Positions 254 through 26,325 of a stretch of 64,000 nucleotides of DNA are shown here, piece by piece (position 1 is the first letter of the stretch; each line of letters begins with the position of its first letter). The notes beneath the pieces are model-generated. The model saw nothing but the letters and a program-made list of their open reading frames with translations. It searched no databases and was not told the origin of the DNA. Position numbers and translations under genes: made by a program. This DNA comes from Pseudoselenomonas ruminantium (GTDB lineage Bacteria > Bacillota > Negativicutes > Selenomonadales > Selenomonadaceae), in NCBI GenBank assembly GCA_902780915.1, contig CACZHK010000015.1, forward strand, positions 1-64,000, in the 5' to 3' direction.

Positions 254-499
254 TTAGAGGTTCCGCACAGAATAGCCCTTGGCATCAGGATATTCCAGCC
301 ACAGGTCACGGAATAGGTGCTCGATGAACGTGTCCCCCCAGGCCTTATGCCGATTGATGGCCTGTCCGATGTGGTAGTACAGTAGCAGCAATTCATTGTT
401 GACCTTTACTGTTGCCTTATACTGTGCTTTTTTGATTTCAGCCTTGATTTCCTGTATCGTAGCAAGATAATCTGTTTGATTCATCAACATATCAATCAT
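254..499 (-). pseudogene. DUF1016 N-terminal fragment (YhcG/PDDEXK nuclease family), truncated
   Basis: The 81 residues match the DUF1016 N-terminal domain: an IKAEIKKAQYKATVKVNNELLLLYYHIG segment in two parts (about residues 18-45), then WGDTFIEHL and the hallmark YPDAKGYSVRNL. Family members run to roughly 330-380 aa and continue after SVRNL into a linker and a PDDEXK nuclease domain. Here a TAG-type stop follows SVRNL at once and nothing recognisable lies downstream, so the nuclease half is missing. The start overlaps the end of the PC4-like gene (stop/start overlap at 492-499), so it is the last gene of the restriction operon. It is probably inactive, although the N-terminal domain could still bind partners. 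Confidence 0.75.
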
Positions 500-722
500 G
501 CGTCTCCATTATGTTTTTTAGCAGGTCATAAAGCTTTTCAACCTCTTCGTTGGAAAGTGTAGTTCCTTTGCCCATCTTTTCATGTTCAGGTGACCAGTCA
601 CGGATGTCATATTTAGGGTCACGGCCATTCCATGAAATAAGATTAAGTTCTTTACGCCAGCCTTTGGCACTTTCGGAGAGAACACCGATATGGTGCTTGA
701 TTTCAAATTTTATATCTGACAT
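492..722 (-). CDS. YdbC-family PC4-like ssDNA-binding protein
   Basis: A 76-aa protein resembling the small bacterial YdbC/PC4 family: an N-terminal FEIKHHIGVLSESAKGW strand pair, the conserved KELNLISWNGRDPKYDIRDW core, then a C-terminal helix. Family members form dimers that bind single-stranded DNA; their physiological role is unclear. An AGGAG motif 7 nt before the ATG lies within the tail of the methyltransferase frame, and only one base separates the two genes, so it is co-transcribed with the restriction genes. YdbC genes are also found outside defence islands, so a role in restriction is inferred from position only. Confidence 0.75.
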   Translation of the reverse strand: MSDIKFEIKHHIGVLSESAKGWRKELNLISWNGRDPKYDIRDWSPEHEKMGKGTTLSNEEVEKLYDLLKNIMETHD

Positions 723-2627: not shown

Positions 2628-4292
2628 TTAAGCGGTCAGCAGGACACTTGTCACCCCCCCGTGGACAACAGGCTTATAAATGCTGGCCGGCATTTCCAGC
2701 TGCCGTTGTGGGTCAAATTCAAAATGCTTCTTCCCCTTTGCATCCTTGACTTCCTTGGTCTTCATGGTATCACTGTCGCGGAAGTATTCGCCATAGAGAA
2801 TGAATTTCCTGATGTCTGCTTCTTCGATGCCGGTATTGGTGGTCAGATAGTTAATCAGACTTTCCTGACACATATAGTGAACTATCTCACGAGGGGTATA
2901 GAATGCCCCTTTTGATTTCCTGTCCTTCACATCCAGCAGATTCTCAAAAACCTTCCCCAGCATTTCCGGGTCGATGGCCACTTCACGCTCCATGGGCTCA
3001 TCTTCGGCCATGGTGAAGTTATAGCGGTCAAAAATGTCCAGAATGCCGTCTGCCTCATCCTTGCCCTTCTCATCCGCATTGGAAAACATGGAATTGGGAA
3101 TATGGAAGTCAGAATTTACCCAGTCATAATTATCCAGCTGCTCAAACAGGCCACCATTCAGGAAGGGGACACGGCAATGGAATCGGGCATAGAAGCCACT
3201 TTCTCCACGGTCAACATTCAGAGCCTCATAAAACAGCGGCTCCAAGTAATCATCAAAGTAGTTCCGACCTTGCTTTACACAAGATTCGTACAGAGCACGC
3301 ATAAAATTCTTCGGCCCCTCGCCCCATGACTTTCCTTTGACCAATGTAGATAGAAATTTTGCATCCTTATCGGACAGGGCAAATAAAGCCTCACGGTTGA
3401 TAAAGGAAATACCATCAGCGTTAGGCTGGGAATATACACTTTCAACTATGTTATGAGCCTTGGCATTGCGAAACAGAGCACTCTTATATGCTTTTTCCGT
3501 CAGTCGTGTCGGGAATGCCGATACGCCCAGCCACCCCTTTTTCTGTATGAAGTAGAGGAAAACAATCTGCCCCATGAGTTTTTTGGTAAACTGCTCACTG
3601 GTGAAACCGCAACGTTCAGCTTCTGCCATAAAGTCAGGGGTATTTTCCAAATACTCCTTGACGGCCAGATACTTTTCCTTGTAGTCGTTGAAGAACTGTT
3701 TGGTGACAGTCTCAACGCTGAAAGCTTCTTCCAGTTCGGCGAGGCTGGGATTAACATTATCCTGCACAAAAATACCGTAAAGCCGTTCCTGCGCCGTATG
3801 GCAAGGCTCTCCTTTGCCTACAAGGTAAGAATAACGCTTGGCAGGAGTAAGTTTTGTGCTCAGTTTACCATCGGCAAAGCCATATTCCATGCGGATGAGG
3901 GATAACCTCCACTTATCACTTGGGCGTTCCTGTCCATTGGCATCTTTTTCCATGGTAAAAAAGGCTGCCAAAGCACCATCACACCCGGAGTTATCCAGCA
4001 GTGTCTTGATGAATGCTCTCTGGGAACTGCGAGCATTCTCTACATTTCCCTTGTTTTGCAGCTGTACGGCAAAGAGAGCCATTTTCTTTCCATCGGAACC
4101 TTTGTAATTTCCAATATGGTAATGTCCGGCAATTATTCCAGACAAACTGCTAAACTCCTTGTTGAATCGTGTTGGAGCCACCATTTGCACATCGTTTAAC
4201 AATTCTTGCAGGAAATGCACATATTCCTGATGATTATAGGCTTTTGTAAGCGTTTGTAAGAATAACTCTTTTTTCTTGCTGTTATCTGTCAT
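2628..4292 (-). CDS. restriction-modification methyltransferase, N-terminal part (interrupted by frameshift)
   Basis: This 554-aa frame is the N-terminal part of the same protein as 724-2613. It holds a mostly alpha-helical region often seen before Eco57I-type methylases, then GAFYTPREIVHYMC (about residue 466), the motif X region that precedes motif I. The reading breaks after VVHGG at the G7 tract and ends on eight foreign residues (VTSVLLTA). The start lies 3 nt after the helicase gene stop, so the two are translationally coupled. Methylase and helicase-nuclease as two adjacent proteins resembles type I-like or split type ISP enzymes. No separate specificity gene is visible. With the frame closed the cell would lack modification. 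Whether restriction also stops depends on whether the helicase-nuclease needs this subunit, which cannot be told from sequence. Confidence 0.85.
   Translation of the reverse strand: MTDNSKKKELFLQTLTKAYNHQEYVHFLQELLNDVQMVAPTRFNKEFSSLSGIIAGHYHIGNYKGSDGKKMALFAVQLQNKGNVENARSSQRAFIKTLLDNSGCDGALAAFFTMEKDANGQERPSDKWRLSLIRMEYGFADGKLSTKLTPAKRYSYLVGKGEPCHTAQERLYGIFVQDNVNPSLAELEEAFSVETVTKQFFNDYKEKYLAVKEYLENTPDFMAEAERCGFTSEQFTKKLMGQIVFLYFIQKKGWLGVSAFPTRLTEKAYKSALFRNAKAHNIVESVYSQPNADGISFINREALFALSDKDAKFLSTLVKGKSWGEGPKNFMRALYESCVKQGRNYFDDYLEPLFYEALNVDRGESGFYARFHCRVPFLNGGLFEQLDNYDWVNSDFHIPNSMFSNADEKGKDEADGILDIFDRYNFTMAEDEPMEREVAIDPEMLGKVFENLLDVKDRKSKGAFYTPREIVHYMCQESLINYLTTNTGIEEADIRKFILYGEYFRDSDTMKTKEVKDAKGKKHFEFDPQRQLEMPASIYKPVVHGGVTSVLLTA
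2654..2660 (-). repeat. G7 (C7 on plus) slippage tract inside methyltransferase gene
   Basis: Seven consecutive G on the coding strand sit exactly at the break between the two methyltransferase frames. With seven G the frame ends at 2628. With eight (or five) it continues in frame through motif I. The position of the tract at the lesion makes slipped-strand mispairing, or homopolymer sequencing error, the natural explanation. Confidence 0.8.
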
Positions 4293-4295
4293 TGT

Positions 4296-7200
4296 TTACT
4301 CCTGTTCCTTCATGTAGCATGAGAGAATAACCTCTTTGTCCCCTTCGGGGAGCACAACGTTCTTACGCTCATACAGATAGGTATCGTCAATATTATCCCT
4401 TATGGTAGCGAAGGCTGCTACTATATTGCTGGCTGCTTTCATTTGTTTGACTATTTCCTTGGTGGTGTTCTTGGGAATATCACCATTTTCGATAGCTTGC
4501 ATAATACGCTCGGCTACCGCTTCTTGGTCATCAGTAAGCTCTCCCGAAGCCAATGCCCCTTTTAGTGTCTTGACAATTGTGGCATCGTTACCTCTTATGG
4601 CTGCTCTTTTCGTAGTAATAACATCTTCTGTCGTGAGTGATTCATCAAAATACTTGCTATTAGCTTGATACTGGTCATAGTAGATACTACCCACGGGAAT
4701 TTTTTTCTCATCCGGCTCACATTCCAGATACCCCATGGCATCCATAAAGCCTATTTCATGAGTATCATGGTCGTTTGACAAGAAGAAGCTCTTTAATGCT
4801 CCCTTGCGGATAAAGGTAAGAGTTGCTTCTTGCTGAACCTTGTCGCTCAGTCTGCCCGTCTTGGATTTCTTTGGCAAACTTTTAATTTTGTTGAACAATT
4901 TCAGGTCATTGTCTCGCACTTCACGAATTTTAGCCAGATATTCCAGCTCAGGGCTAGCTCCTTCCTCTTCCTCCAGCGTCTGGGATAAATCCTTAAACAG
5001 CTTTTGCGGGCTGGGATTTTCCTCTTCGGACAAAAACTTGTAGTCTTCACCTAACGTATCATGGAAAGCCTGTAGTTTCTCCAATATACGATCTGTCAGC
5101 GGAAGCTGTTTGCTTGCTTGGGAGGTGGGGAAGAAATTGAATACATATATTTTGTCAAAAGCTGTACCGACACGGTTGATACGTCCTACACGCTGCATAA
5201 TGCGTGTAGGATTCCACGGCAGGTCATAATTGATAATGACATTAGACCTATGCAGGTTGATACCTTCGGCCAGCACATCAGTGGTAATAAGAATGTCGTA
5301 CTTATCCCGATTTTTATCTATGTACTTCGGGTTAAAGCTGTACTCTATCTCCTTTTTCAGAGCAGCATTGCTATCACCTGAATAAGAAATGATACGCTCG
5401 CCATAAATTTCTTCCAGATTTTCCGTGAGGTACTGTGCGGTTTCTTTGGATTCTGTGAAGACAATTTTCTTAGCTCTGGCCAGAACAGGCACGTTTTTCA
5501 AGTCATTTTCAAACTCGATGAGCTTTGGGTCTGTCTTGACAGACTTCCACAGGTCTTGCAAATAGCAGAGTTTCTGCAAGTCACGCTTCAAATCTATGAT
5601 GAAATTAGAGCGGAAATCACTTGCCTTGAAGTGCATTACGTCCTCTGTCTCAATATATTTAAGCAGAAGCTCATCATCACCGTTATCCATGAAGTCATAG
5701 ACATCAACCTTTTTGCTGATATAGACCTCACCCTTATCAAACATATCAATAAATTTTTCGTAAGATGTTACGAACCTGCCTAATGTCAGCCTGAAAGCAT
5801 AAAAACTGCTCTCTAAACGCTTTACCAATATCCCCTTCATGAATCCTCCCATGTTTTGCTGGGCTACCATCATTTGGGTATACGGCTCCGCTGCATCCGT
5901 CTTTAGATAGGTGAGTGGCCTATAACGTGCGTAATTGAAGTCCTTGATGGCATTGATTGTTTCAGTAAACACGCCGTCTGTCAGTTCATCAAATTCGTAG
6001 ATGATTTTTTCAGGTGCATCTAGACGAGGGAATTTTAAGCCCTGATGTTCCATGTCCTTAGCATAATATTTGGCTACTTCACTGCGTGTCCTGCGAATCA
6101 TGATGTGACGAAGCAGTTTATCACGGATAATTTCCGAATTAGCACTTATCTGAGCAAGGTAGGCAGCTCCTCCCTGTTTTTTCGCTTCGTTCTGGCTTTT
6201 GCGAAGTTGCAGGAAGAACTCTTCCAAATTCTTCACACCAACAATATTGGAATTATGCTTAGGCTGGAAAAGATATATCTGGTTTTCTATATCGCTGGTG
6301 TAGTTATTGATTGGCGTAGCAGAAATCAGCACCACTCTCTTGCCGTAGCAGATGGCATGAAGTCTTCCAAAAGCATCTGTACCTGCATTGCGGAATCTGT
6401 GGGCCTCATCCACAAATACATATTTATACTTATCAGCTCGGTCTAAAACAGACTCCAATTTTCCCAAAGACACAACATCTGCGGCCACATCGAACTCTAA
6501 AAGCACATCTTTCCAATAATCAACCAGCACAGGCGGGCAAATCACCAGTTTCCGCCCTTTTTTTATGATTTTGGCCAACATTGAGCAGATATATGTCTTG
6601 CCCAGACCTACTACATCTGATATGAATACACCGTCATGGGCTTCCAATATACGCTTTGCCTGTATAACAGCATCCAACTGATATTGCAGTCGCATAAAGC
6701 CATCAGGCAGAATATTCTCTGCCAGCTCTTCTTTGTCAGTATTGATTTCCTCTTTGAAGTATTCATAGATGGTCTTGAGATAAATCTCATAAGGCGTAAT
6801 ATCCCCACGCATCCATGTCTTGTCATCTACGGTTGATATATAAGCCTCTGTAATATCAACTCCCTGCTTCCACAGTTCTTCAAACTTATCCAAGGCAAAT
6901 TTCACATCATGGCTATCTTTAAGCTCTACATTGAACTCAAGGTTGTTCTGCAAACCTGCCATAGAGAAGTTGCTGGAGCCTGTAATGACGCTGCCGAACT
7001 GGTCTGGCACGTGTTCTGGGTCTTTACGAAGTATATAGACCTTGGCATGAATAGGCTCGTCAGGGTACATTCGCATCTCGATTTTGCCGGATTTCAGCCA
7101 TTCTATAAATATGCGTACCCCCTGCTCCACAGGCATGGAAGGTTCTGCATCCACAAACTCATCAACTACGGCCTCTGAAAACTTCTCCGTTGCCTCCTTG

Positions 7201-7463
7201 ATGGTCACGCCTCCAAATAAATTGCTCTGCTTCGATTGCTCTATGATTTGAACAGTCCTAGCATCTACGTTCAGCCCTACCAATATACGAATCTTCTCCA
7301 AGTCCTGCATGGCTGGATACAGCTTGAAGAAACCGCTGGTACGGAAGTAGCCCACCAATATATCAAAAAATTGGGTATGTCCCTTCAGGATATTGCAAAA
7401 CCGGCTGTACAAGTCACGCTCCGGCTCGTTTGTAAAAAATTTCAGGTCATTGTCAACGCTCAT
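4296..7463 (-). CDS. PLD-family nuclease fused to SNF2-type helicase (restriction/translocation subunit)
   Basis: A 1,055-aa protein. The N-terminal domain is phospholipase-D-like: HAKVYILRKD (about residue 138) followed by GSSNFSMAG gives the HxK...GSxN signature of PLD-type nucleases. A superfamily-2 helicase follows, with Walker A in VVGLGKTY (about 287), VDEAHRF box II (about 352), SATPINN motif III, TTDVLAEGINL motif V and QRVGRINRVG motif VI (about 764). The C-terminal 250 residues are a coupler-like region I cannot name. PLD nuclease plus SNF2 motor next to an adenine methylase indicates an ATP-driven restriction enzyme. A DISARM or BREX label is not supported because the partner genes of those systems are absent. 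It is the first gene of the operon; an AGTTAGAAG stretch just before the ATG is a weak ribosome site. Confidence 0.85.
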   Translation of the reverse strand: MSVDNDLKFFTNEPERDLYSRFCNILKGHTQFFDILVGYFRTSGFFKLYPAMQDLEKIRILVGLNVDARTVQIIEQSKQSNLFGGVTIKEATEKFSEAVVDEFVDAEPSMPVEQGVRIFIEWLKSGKIEMRMYPDEPIHAKVYILRKDPEHVPDQFGSVITGSSNFSMAGLQNNLEFNVELKDSHDVKFALDKFEELWKQGVDITEAYISTVDDKTWMRGDITPYEIYLKTIYEYFKEEINTDKEELAENILPDGFMRLQYQLDAVIQAKRILEAHDGVFISDVVGLGKTYICSMLAKIIKKGRKLVICPPVLVDYWKDVLLEFDVAADVVSLGKLESVLDRADKYKYVFVDEAHRFRNAGTDAFGRLHAICYGKRVVLISATPINNYTSDIENQIYLFQPKHNSNIVGVKNLEEFFLQLRKSQNEAKKQGGAAYLAQISANSEIIRDKLLRHIMIRRTRSEVAKYYAKDMEHQGLKFPRLDAPEKIIYEFDELTDGVFTETINAIKDFNYARYRPLTYLKTDAAEPYTQMMVAQQNMGGFMKGILVKRLESSFYAFRLTLGRFVTSYEKFIDMFDKGEVYISKKVDVYDFMDNGDDELLLKYIETEDVMHFKASDFRSNFIIDLKRDLQKLCYLQDLWKSVKTDPKLIEFENDLKNVPVLARAKKIVFTESKETAQYLTENLEEIYGERIISYSGDSNAALKKEIEYSFNPKYIDKNRDKYDILITTDVLAEGINLHRSNVIINYDLPWNPTRIMQRVGRINRVGTAFDKIYVFNFFPTSQASKQLPLTDRILEKLQAFHDTLGEDYKFLSEEENPSPQKLFKDLSQTLEEEEGASPELEYLAKIREVRDNDLKLFNKIKSLPKKSKTGRLSDKVQQEATLTFIRKGALKSFFLSNDHDTHEIGFMDAMGYLECEPDEKKIPVGSIYYDQYQANSKYFDESLTTEDVITTKRAAIRGNDATIVKTLKGALASGELTDDQEAVAERIMQAIENGDIPKNTTKEIVKQMKAASNIVAAFATIRDNIDDTYLYERKNVVLPEGDKEVILSCYMKEQE

Positions 7464-21807: not shown

Positions 21808-21847
21808 TAAAACAACAAAAGCGCTCCCGCCCCAAAGGACGAAAGCG
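21808..21847 (-). terminator. T-box terminator hairpin of the valS leader
   Basis: On the minus strand CGCTTTCGTCC pairs with GGGCGGGAGCG (11 bp including G-U pairs) around a short TTT-containing loop, followed by CTTTTGTTGTTTT. It overlaps the 3' side of the T-box antiterminator region, so the two structures are mutually exclusive. Confidence 0.75.
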
Positions 21848-22055
21848 CGCACTTTCGTGGTACCACCAATGTTCCCGGAGAAAAACTCCGGCTCAAAGCC
21901 TTAACGCAGCCCTACGTCCGAGCCTACTTGCTTCAGCCCGAAAGCTCCGAAGCGACCTTCAAGCCCATCGCGCAGAAACTTACACCAGCCGTTTCCTCTC
22001 TACAGCGCGAAAAAGCCCTACTCCTCTCCGTCATCGCCTTGGTATTCGATTAGAT
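21808..22055 (-). promoter_or_regulatory. T-box riboswitch controlling valS
   Basis: The leader contains the T-box core GGTGGTACCACG (21856-21870 region), which pairs with the uncharged tRNA acceptor end in the antiterminator. Upstream are a stem III hairpin (CCGGAG-TTTTT-CTCCGG) and a long stem I with the AGGAGTAG internal-loop sequence. A candidate specifier codon GTC (valine) lies at 21954-21956, in GAAGGTCGC. Low tRNA-Val charging should favour read-through into valS. Placement directly before valS supports the valine assignment; the specifier was picked by eye. Confidence 0.85.
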
Positions 22056-24615: not shown

Positions 24616-26325
24616 TCAGCCGTCATAAAGCCCTACCATGACCTCATCATCCCTCACCGTAAGCGTGCACCGCTGCAGTTCAGACTGGATATTCTTCTTC
24701 AGGGAGTTGATGGTGATGCGCACGCCGGGATAGATGATAGAAGCCACGGAAATCTTACCGTTCTTCATCTGGGAAAGTTCCTCAGTCATGGCGGCAATCT
24801 CCGCCTCCTGGCGCTTGAGCTTGCCCACCAGGGGGAACTGGGAACGAGTCAGGGAGTTTATCTGCTCCACTCGCTGTGGAGGCAACTTGCTCACGTCAAT
24901 CTTGGAGAGGGTATTGAGCATCTGGGTGATTTCTGTCAGGCGCTTCTTGGTCTCCTTGTACTCATTGCAGGCCGCATTGTACTTGTGTTGCAAGGTGGGG
25001 TCGATGCCCACGGAGATATTGGTGACCACGCAAGCCTGGTTGCCCAGGACGTTGGCTCGGATTTCCTCTCCTGCAGCGGCAAATCCTCCGGTGATCTGCC
25101 CCCGCCGGTCTTCAAGAATGATATGCTTCCCGGCTCTGAGATTGGAATGCAGGGACACATCTGAAATATGGATGTCCTGCCCAGCCTCAATCCTGGCATT
25201 TTCCGCAAAGGAAACCCGCACGTCCTCATCAGCCGTCACCTGTCCCCGGCCCATGCCGTTGACCCCCCCGCTGACAAAGACGTTGCGGCCATGTACATCG
25301 CCGCCGCTGACCACACCACCGATTTCGATGTCACCGGTGGCCTTCACGATGAAACCTGCTTCCACATTGCCCTTGATTTCCACGCTGCCATCAAAGTCTA
25401 TGTTGCCAGTGCTGACTCCAACACTGCTCCTGATGATCAGATGAGGGTCCACGGAAATCTTGGTCTTGCTGTCCACAATCTGACCATCAATGGCGGCAAT
25501 CACCGTGTTCTCCCCCTGCTGGGCTGTACCCTTGCCCAAGGGCAGGGGCAGCGGACGGCCATTGCGGGCCATGACCTCGGCTCCCAGCACATTCTTGCCG
25601 GGGACCCCTTGGGTCTGGGGAATGCGCACGGCCAGCACAGAACCTTTCTTCACCAACACAAACAGGTTGAGGTTCTTATAGTCCACCCGATCGTATTTGT
25701 CCACCACAGGGCGGCCCTTGATCCCCAGATCGAACTTGCGCTCAATGACAGCATTCTCACCATGCTGGGGCGGCACGCCCATGGCTGCCACAAAGGGGCT
25801 CAACCCCTTGCAGCCCTTCTTGATGGACTCCATATTGATGCCGAAGACCACCTTCTTGGCCGCCAAAGCCTCCTGAATGTCACTGACAGAACGCAGCCCC
25901 TTGCCCTTGCGGGTGTCAAAGCGCACGTTGGCCTGCATGCGGTCGCGGCTTATTTCCACGATGATCTCTGCGGGGATTGCCTGGAGAGCCTTTTCCTCCT
26001 CGGAAAGGGTGATATCATCTTCAGCGAACTCGCCTTCGGCTGGCCTTTTTTCCCCATTCAGCAGTGCTTTCATTTCCTCGGGGGACAGGAAGGAATCTGA
26101 AAGTTTCTGGGCTTCGCCTGAAGATTCGCGTACAATGCGTGCCAGACTCACCACATCGTAGTCCACCACGCCACACTCCTGGAGTATCTGCCGGATATCT
26201 GACAGCTCAAAGAGGACTCCATTGGAGTCCGGAAAAATCGTGATGTAGACGCCCGATTCCCTGAATTCCAGCAGATAGCCGGCCTCTGCCCCCCCCACGG
26301 GGGAGCGCAGCTCCTTCTCGGCCAT
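24616..26325 (-). CDS. DUF342/FapA-family protein
   Basis: A 569-aa protein. The central part (about residues 170-420) shows DUF342 features: repeated valine/glycine strands such as GNIDFDGSVEIKGNVEAGF and VKATGDIEIGGVVSGGDV, which suggest a right-handed beta helix. A helical region (about 430-510) with a possible coiled coil follows. FapA-type proteins are cytoplasmic or membrane-recruited scaffolds, and in Vibrio one influences flagellar/signalling localisation. It lies directly after the sigma-28 gene, separated by a perfect hairpin. The start at 26325 (ATGGCCGAG) has AGGGGG 9 nt upstream; the ATG at 26334 is too close to that site. Confidence 0.75.
   Translation of the reverse strand: MAEKELRSPVGGAEAGYLLEFRESGVYITIFPDSNGVLFELSDIRQILQECGVVDYDVVSLARIVRESSGEAQKLSDSFLSPEEMKALLNGEKRPAEGEFAEDDITLSEEEKALQAIPAEIIVEISRDRMQANVRFDTRKGKGLRSVSDIQEALAAKKVVFGINMESIKKGCKGLSPFVAAMGVPPQHGENAVIERKFDLGIKGRPVVDKYDRVDYKNLNLFVLVKKGSVLAVRIPQTQGVPGKNVLGAEVMARNGRPLPLPLGKGTAQQGENTVIAAIDGQIVDSKTKISVDPHLIIRSSVGVSTGNIDFDGSVEIKGNVEAGFIVKATGDIEIGGVVSGGDVHGRNVFVSGGVNGMGRGQVTADEDVRVSFAENARIEAGQDIHISDVSLHSNLRAGKHIILEDRRGQITGGFAAAGEEIRANVLGNQACVVTNISVGIDPTLQHKYNAACNEYKETKKRLTEITQMLNTLSKIDVSKLPPQRVEQINSLTRSQFPLVGKLKRQEAEIAAMTEELSQMKNGKISVASIIYPGVRITINSLKKNIQSELQRCTLTVRDDEVMVGLYDG

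Follow-up and report, generated by a model that had tools for sequence, protein, structure and literature searches.

An N6-adenine methylase gene of Pseudoselenomonas ruminantium broken at a lineage-specific tract of seven G: an OFF allele and a plausible phase-variable switch

High-frequency phase variation of pglX in Streptomyces coelicolor has been attributed to a G tract, with eight G in the Pgl+ strain, seven G in inactive contracted derivatives, and switching at 1e-2 to 1e-4 (PMC4365076). The type IIG gene cj0031 of Campylobacter jejuni is on with G9 and off with G10, and the tract is missing in many homologues (PMC4889913). For the Neisseria NgoAV gene hsdS1, alleles with 7G and a frameshift occur (PMC9577141). 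A survey of Campylobacter set the cut-off for phase variation at ≥7 G/C, with switching documented for tracts of ≥8 (PMC6321876). Systems that pair a helicase with a methylase are also known, as in the Type-2 BREX-related (BR) systems, the effectors of which are an HKD-Swi2/Snf2 helicase and an N6-MTase (PMC12839542).

The locus described here lies in a stretch of 64,000 nucleotides (the window) at the start of contig C15, in a 3.16 Mb draft genome of Pseudoselenomonas ruminantium assembled in 104 contigs. The methylase, which is PglX/type IIG-like and specific for N6-adenine, is the second gene of a two-gene operon on the minus strand. The first encodes an intact HKD(PLD)-SNF2 helicase of 1055 aa (4296-7463, with HxK at 7049, Walker A at 6608 and DEAH at 6410). 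The methylase is read in two frames, both on the minus strand. The upstream ORF (2628-4292, 554 aa) encodes the N-terminal domain and the motif X region of gamma-class N6 methylases (YTPREI, 2883-2900, matching the N terminus of CamA), and its product stops shortly past the G tract. The downstream frame (724-2667) encodes the SAM-binding motif I (ADPAVGSGAF, 2563-2592), the catalytic motif IV (NPPY, 1873-1884), an Eco57I domain and a TaqI-like specificity domain, with the target recognition domain (TRD) at 724-1878. The Eco57I and TaqI_C domains give the gene the N6 methylase core and C-terminal specificity domain of a type IIG enzyme, and PADLOC reports REase_MTase_IIG (E 8e-99). In the N-terminal alpha/beta domain, a Parabacteroides homologue has a D..ExK-like site (LDLVVYEVK), whose E is a Q in the window family. 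A model predicted for the upstream fragment, with a mean pLDDT of 66.7, gave no significant fold match in the PDB. Judging from the motifs it carries, the upstream product is predicted to be unable to bind SAM in the usual way.

The reading frame shifts within about 35 nt (2638-2672). Homology of the upstream frame to the intact proteins of relatives ends at ...LEMPASIYK, and that of the downstream frame, which is open from 2673 to 724, picks up again from DRLKEIDDLLANVKIADPAVGSGAF; the shift is thus confined to this interval, across which the intact relatives read ...LEMPESIFSFKQGVNRLKELDELLANVKIADPAVGSGAF. The only long homopolymer in the interval is a G7 tract (2654-2660, minus strand), where the plus strand has exactly seven C. 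The tract lies within the methylase reading frame and has the length (≥7 G/C) expected of an SSR phase-variable gene. The linker between motif X and motif I (2637-2773, minus strand) cannot be aligned to the relatives at the DNA level; compared with the intact alleles it carries 3 and 20 additional nt, 23 nt in all with the tract included. Because 23 is not a multiple of three, the two frames are offset by one base, and a length change of one repeat moves the gene between the intact and the truncated frame, both frames being homologous to one intact protein. An earlier note, made from the sequence alone, had claimed that the methylase frame is broken at a run of seven G and that the frames lie one base apart with motif I and NPPY in phase. 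Alignment to relatives bears out both points. Both motifs fall in the downstream frame.

Like S. coelicolor pglX (Pgl/BREX-2), the window methylase belongs to a family of phage-defence N6-adenine methylases, and NCBIfam gives weak matches to the PglX profiles of BREX-2 and BREX-6. The Pgl system needs pglW, pglY and pglZ, whereas the partner here is the HKD-SNF2 helicase, and switching has been demonstrated for pglX, whereas for the window methylase it is a proposal. It resembles cj0031 in being an N6 methylase of about 1,200 aa with a TaqI-like specificity domain, divided into two ORFs by a change in poly-G length (PMC4889913). In both cases only some alleles carry the tract, and the TRD of cj0031 varies between strains (PMC4889913). 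However, cj0031 is a stand-alone fusion of nuclease and methylase with a G9/G10 tract at bp 2573 of 3732, whereas the window has a separate helicase/nuclease gene and a G7 tract between motif X and motif I. In NgoAV hsdS1, as proposed here, the state of a restriction-modification subunit depends on the length of a poly-G run (PMC9577141), although in NgoAV it is the type I specificity subunit that changes specificity, whereas here the methylase itself is cut ahead of the SAM motif. The operon has the effector architecture of Type-2 BR systems, in which a Swi2/Snf2 helicase bearing an HKD nuclease at its N terminus is paired with an N6-MTase (PMC12839542). BR systems encode a DUF499 ATPase, and Type-2 also a DUF3780 protein, whereas the operon here has no neighbour of DUF499 size, either in the window or in the relatives.

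No DUF499/BrxC-type ATPase or PglZ was identified among the window neighbours of the methylase or in the relatives' loci, the check on the DUF1016 side of the window covering just the 250 bp between the remnant and the contig start. Genes for drmA and drmB were likewise not seen in the window or the relatives' loci, despite DrmMI/DrmD-like profile matches. An assignment to BREX or DISARM was dropped because no DUF499, PglZ, DrmA or DrmB neighbour was seen. The earlier note drew its parallel with phase-variable type I and III methylases; this is not a classical type I or type III system. We infer that the operon acts like a restriction-modification system in which the methylase carries the target recognition domain.

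The methylase is followed by a small conserved ORF of 76 aa (492-722, minus strand) with no NCBIfam match and by a DUF1016_N remnant (254-499, minus strand), which has a stop codon and small indels compared with the intact copies of 341-344 aa in two relatives, G064 and G062. Two others, G183 and G166, showed no DUF1016 gene next to the operon; loss of DUF1016 is therefore hardly informative about the defence pair, and it is probably not an essential partner of the operon. The first 99 nt of the window are a repeat that is also present at five other contig ends; six contigs thus end in this probable mobile-element end. A C9 run (106-114) adjoins the repeat, and the assembly breaks at the probable mobile element. 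Elsewhere in the window, we identified a T-box leader (RF00230, 121 bits) at 21832-22043 on the minus strand.

Matches to the methylase or operon were found in 12 of the 189 genomes of the family, the window's own genome included, and in none of five genomes of the same genus. Close operon copies occur in Anaerovibrio lipolyticus and in another Selenomonadaceae MAG; at the class and phylum level, all further matches were weak and distant. There were no close relatives among phages, plasmids and viral contigs, just homologues below 60% identity. The helicase-methylase pair is conserved in relatives at differing chromosomal sites, which indicates that the operon probably moved horizontally. In four close relatives (G183, G064, G062 and G166) the methylase is in one open frame (1133-1241 aa) and the linker is shorter and without a G run. 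The searches of other genomes turned up none that carries the tract. Its absence from the close relatives means that the tract arose recently, in one lineage, and does not represent a conserved switch. The earlier note had named alignment of the locus in relatives as a check, and an intact, fixed frame lacking the G run as a result that would refute a switch. The relatives do have such a frame; we do not take it as a refutation because only some alleles of cj0031 carry its tract (PMC4889913). By that analogy, conservation of the tract may not strictly be required of a phase-variable gene.

There is good support for a real OFF allele here, located at a G tract specific to this lineage. Our leading reading of the allele is reversible switching, ahead of one-way loss, with a probability that we place just short of even. 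We propose that the tolerant linker separating motif X from motif I acquired a G tract, and that the assembled G7 state would send translation into a stop ahead of the SAM-binding motif, so that neither methylation nor methylase-guided targeting should work. Slipped-strand mispairing at the tract would add or remove one G, and the most likely function of the tract would be to turn the defence system on and off reversibly. The broken subunit also holds the target recognition domain, so loss of the frame would silence modification and restriction at once and spare the cell from cutting its own DNA. Against reversibility, a run of seven G is among the shortest of the tracts known to switch. A G7 tract alone proves no switch, and relatives lacking the tract do not refute one. 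The phase-variable OFF state proposed in the earlier note is therefore retained in part: the break at the tract is real, the two halves each form a conserved part of a single methylase, and other genes broken at poly-G tracts belong to classes that phase-vary elsewhere, but this is not a conserved switch.

The strongest competitor, less probable than reversible switching although a serious one, is one-way inactivation, in which an ordinary indel struck a linker where a G run was present by chance, and pseudogene decay of the locus has begun. Absence of the tract from the relatives fits this account, as does the adjoining DUF1016 gene, with its stop, indels and truncation near the mobile-element end at the contig start; yet that gene, as noted above, is probably not an essential partner of the operon. 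Constraint on the two operon genes points the other way. With each segment compared with one close relative, dN/dS is 0.028 for the N part of the methylase against G183, 0.034 for the helicase against G183 (the range for this gene being 0.03-0.05) and 0.042 for the methylase core against G064. Both genes are thus under purifying selection outside the TRD, strongly so in the helicase and the N half. No second disabling change was found in the ~6.7 kb of methylase and helicase, and given a dN/dS of ~0.03-0.05 outside the specificity domain, the frame break is probably recent.

The specificity domain has a different history. The TRD is 98.9% identical at the DNA level to that of Anaerovibrio UBA3726, compared with ~90% across the rest of the gene, which suggests that the domain was exchanged recently with the UBA3726 lineage. 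Since the exchange, 8 of its changes alter an amino acid and 7 are silent, whereas the N segment that is recently shared with G183 shows 2 and 11, respectively (P about 1e-4 for the TRD ratio if 12% nonsynonymous changes are expected). By comparison with distant homologues, at least two of the 8 amino-acid changes probably trace to the window lineage, and one to the other. These changes would suit one-way loss, but TRDs are able to evolve fast toward new specificity. The excess is a hint of either relaxed constraint or changing specificity and does not decide between them. The decayed DUF1016 gene and the TRD changes are both compatible with permanent loss.

The earlier note had cautioned that a homopolymer sequencing error would look the same. 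We consider an error in homopolymer length, with the gene intact in the cell, to be unlikely. A one-base homopolymer difference is a common type of error, the assembly is a draft, and the rest of the methylase gene is intact. G tracts elsewhere in the genome argue otherwise. We identified 124 G7, 32 G8, 14 G9, one G10 and one G15 tracts, counts that fall roughly geometrically with length and show no general excess; the window has 9 to 10 G/C runs of ≥7, compared with ~14 expected from dinucleotide content. The frame check covered nearly all of the 48 tracts of G8 or longer and 100 of the 124 with exactly seven G, and a strict test of codon usage decided whether a tract counted as in frame. Correctly read genes of the same assembly hold about 43 other G7 tracts and at least six of G8, and the methylase tract is the only one of the 100 G7 tracts with a clear gene-internal frame break. 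The G7 tract by itself is unremarkable; its coincidence with the frame break stands out. Two G7 tracts flagged as frame changes (L176 and L201) turned out to be cases of adjacent genes.

Some of the longer tracts also coincide with frame changes. A LicD family gene is split at G15 (C3:25296-25310; L015:1501-1515) into two Pfam halves in two frames, matching LicD profile positions 1-109 and 196-227. An EptA/EptB-like transferase is broken at G8 (C31, ~25828-25835; L106:1029-1036), with 486 aa open compared with single frames of ~560-670 aa in relatives. Frame changes also occur in a TylF-like O-methyltransferase at G9 (C1:53542-53550; L009), in an adhesin-like repeat protein at G8 (C43:1883-1890; L112) and at an autotransporter-like signal peptide at G9 (C48:1569-1577; L115). 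Genes of these classes phase-vary in other bacteria. Housekeeping genes with G8 are intact, and the breaks at G8-G15 fall in contingency-type genes, which argues against sequencing error; the longer-tract breaks are consistent with poly-G contingency loci in this organism.

We also observed a recurring promoter-like pattern with G7-G9 in its spacer, TGTCTTG[C/T]-Gn-A...TGTG[C/T]TATAAT, before various genes (L013:1501, L030:1501, L101:1023 and, on the minus strand, L109, L116 and L197). These could be phase-variable promoters that differ in spacer length. Two further candidates were rejected. A dispersed poly-G element (TGTCCNNGGGGGG) occurs five times in the genome, compared with zero for a reversed control, yet by a rough estimate this is near the expectation from base composition. 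Inverted repeats flanking the methylase tract (TTGTC..GACAA) are short, and RNA folding there is no better than in shuffled sequences.

Translational or transcriptional slippage on the G run could yield some full-length protein, so that the gene would not be fully off. The frames are related by a -1 shift, and a peptidyl-tRNA on GGG could re-pair with GGG. However, seven G are short for polymerase slippage, there is no stimulatory RNA structure downstream of the tract (z = +0.55), and the tract is missing in all close relatives, thus it is not a conserved recoding site; we regard this explanation as improbable. Least credible of all is that the ORFs encode a functional split enzyme of two chains, as the break does fall in a length-variable linker between motif X and motif I but the downstream ORF lacks a good start codon, with no in-frame ATG or GTG near its start and just a TTG without a clear ribosome-binding site.

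We tentatively propose, as a possibility that we rate below an even chance, that poly-G slippage is a general contingency mechanism in this Selenomonadaceae commensal, acting on surface glycan, lipid A and adhesin genes, on a phage-defence methylase and possibly on the spacers of a promoter family, with the methylase switch gained in one lineage of an otherwise constitutive operon. No prior report of poly-G phase variation in Selenomonadaceae was found in the literature searched, and switching at the methylase tract would extend it to this family. If the tract does not switch, the locus represents a routine recent gene loss. If it does, it would be a case of phase-variable defence caught at the birth of the switch, with close relatives carrying the operon without the tract.
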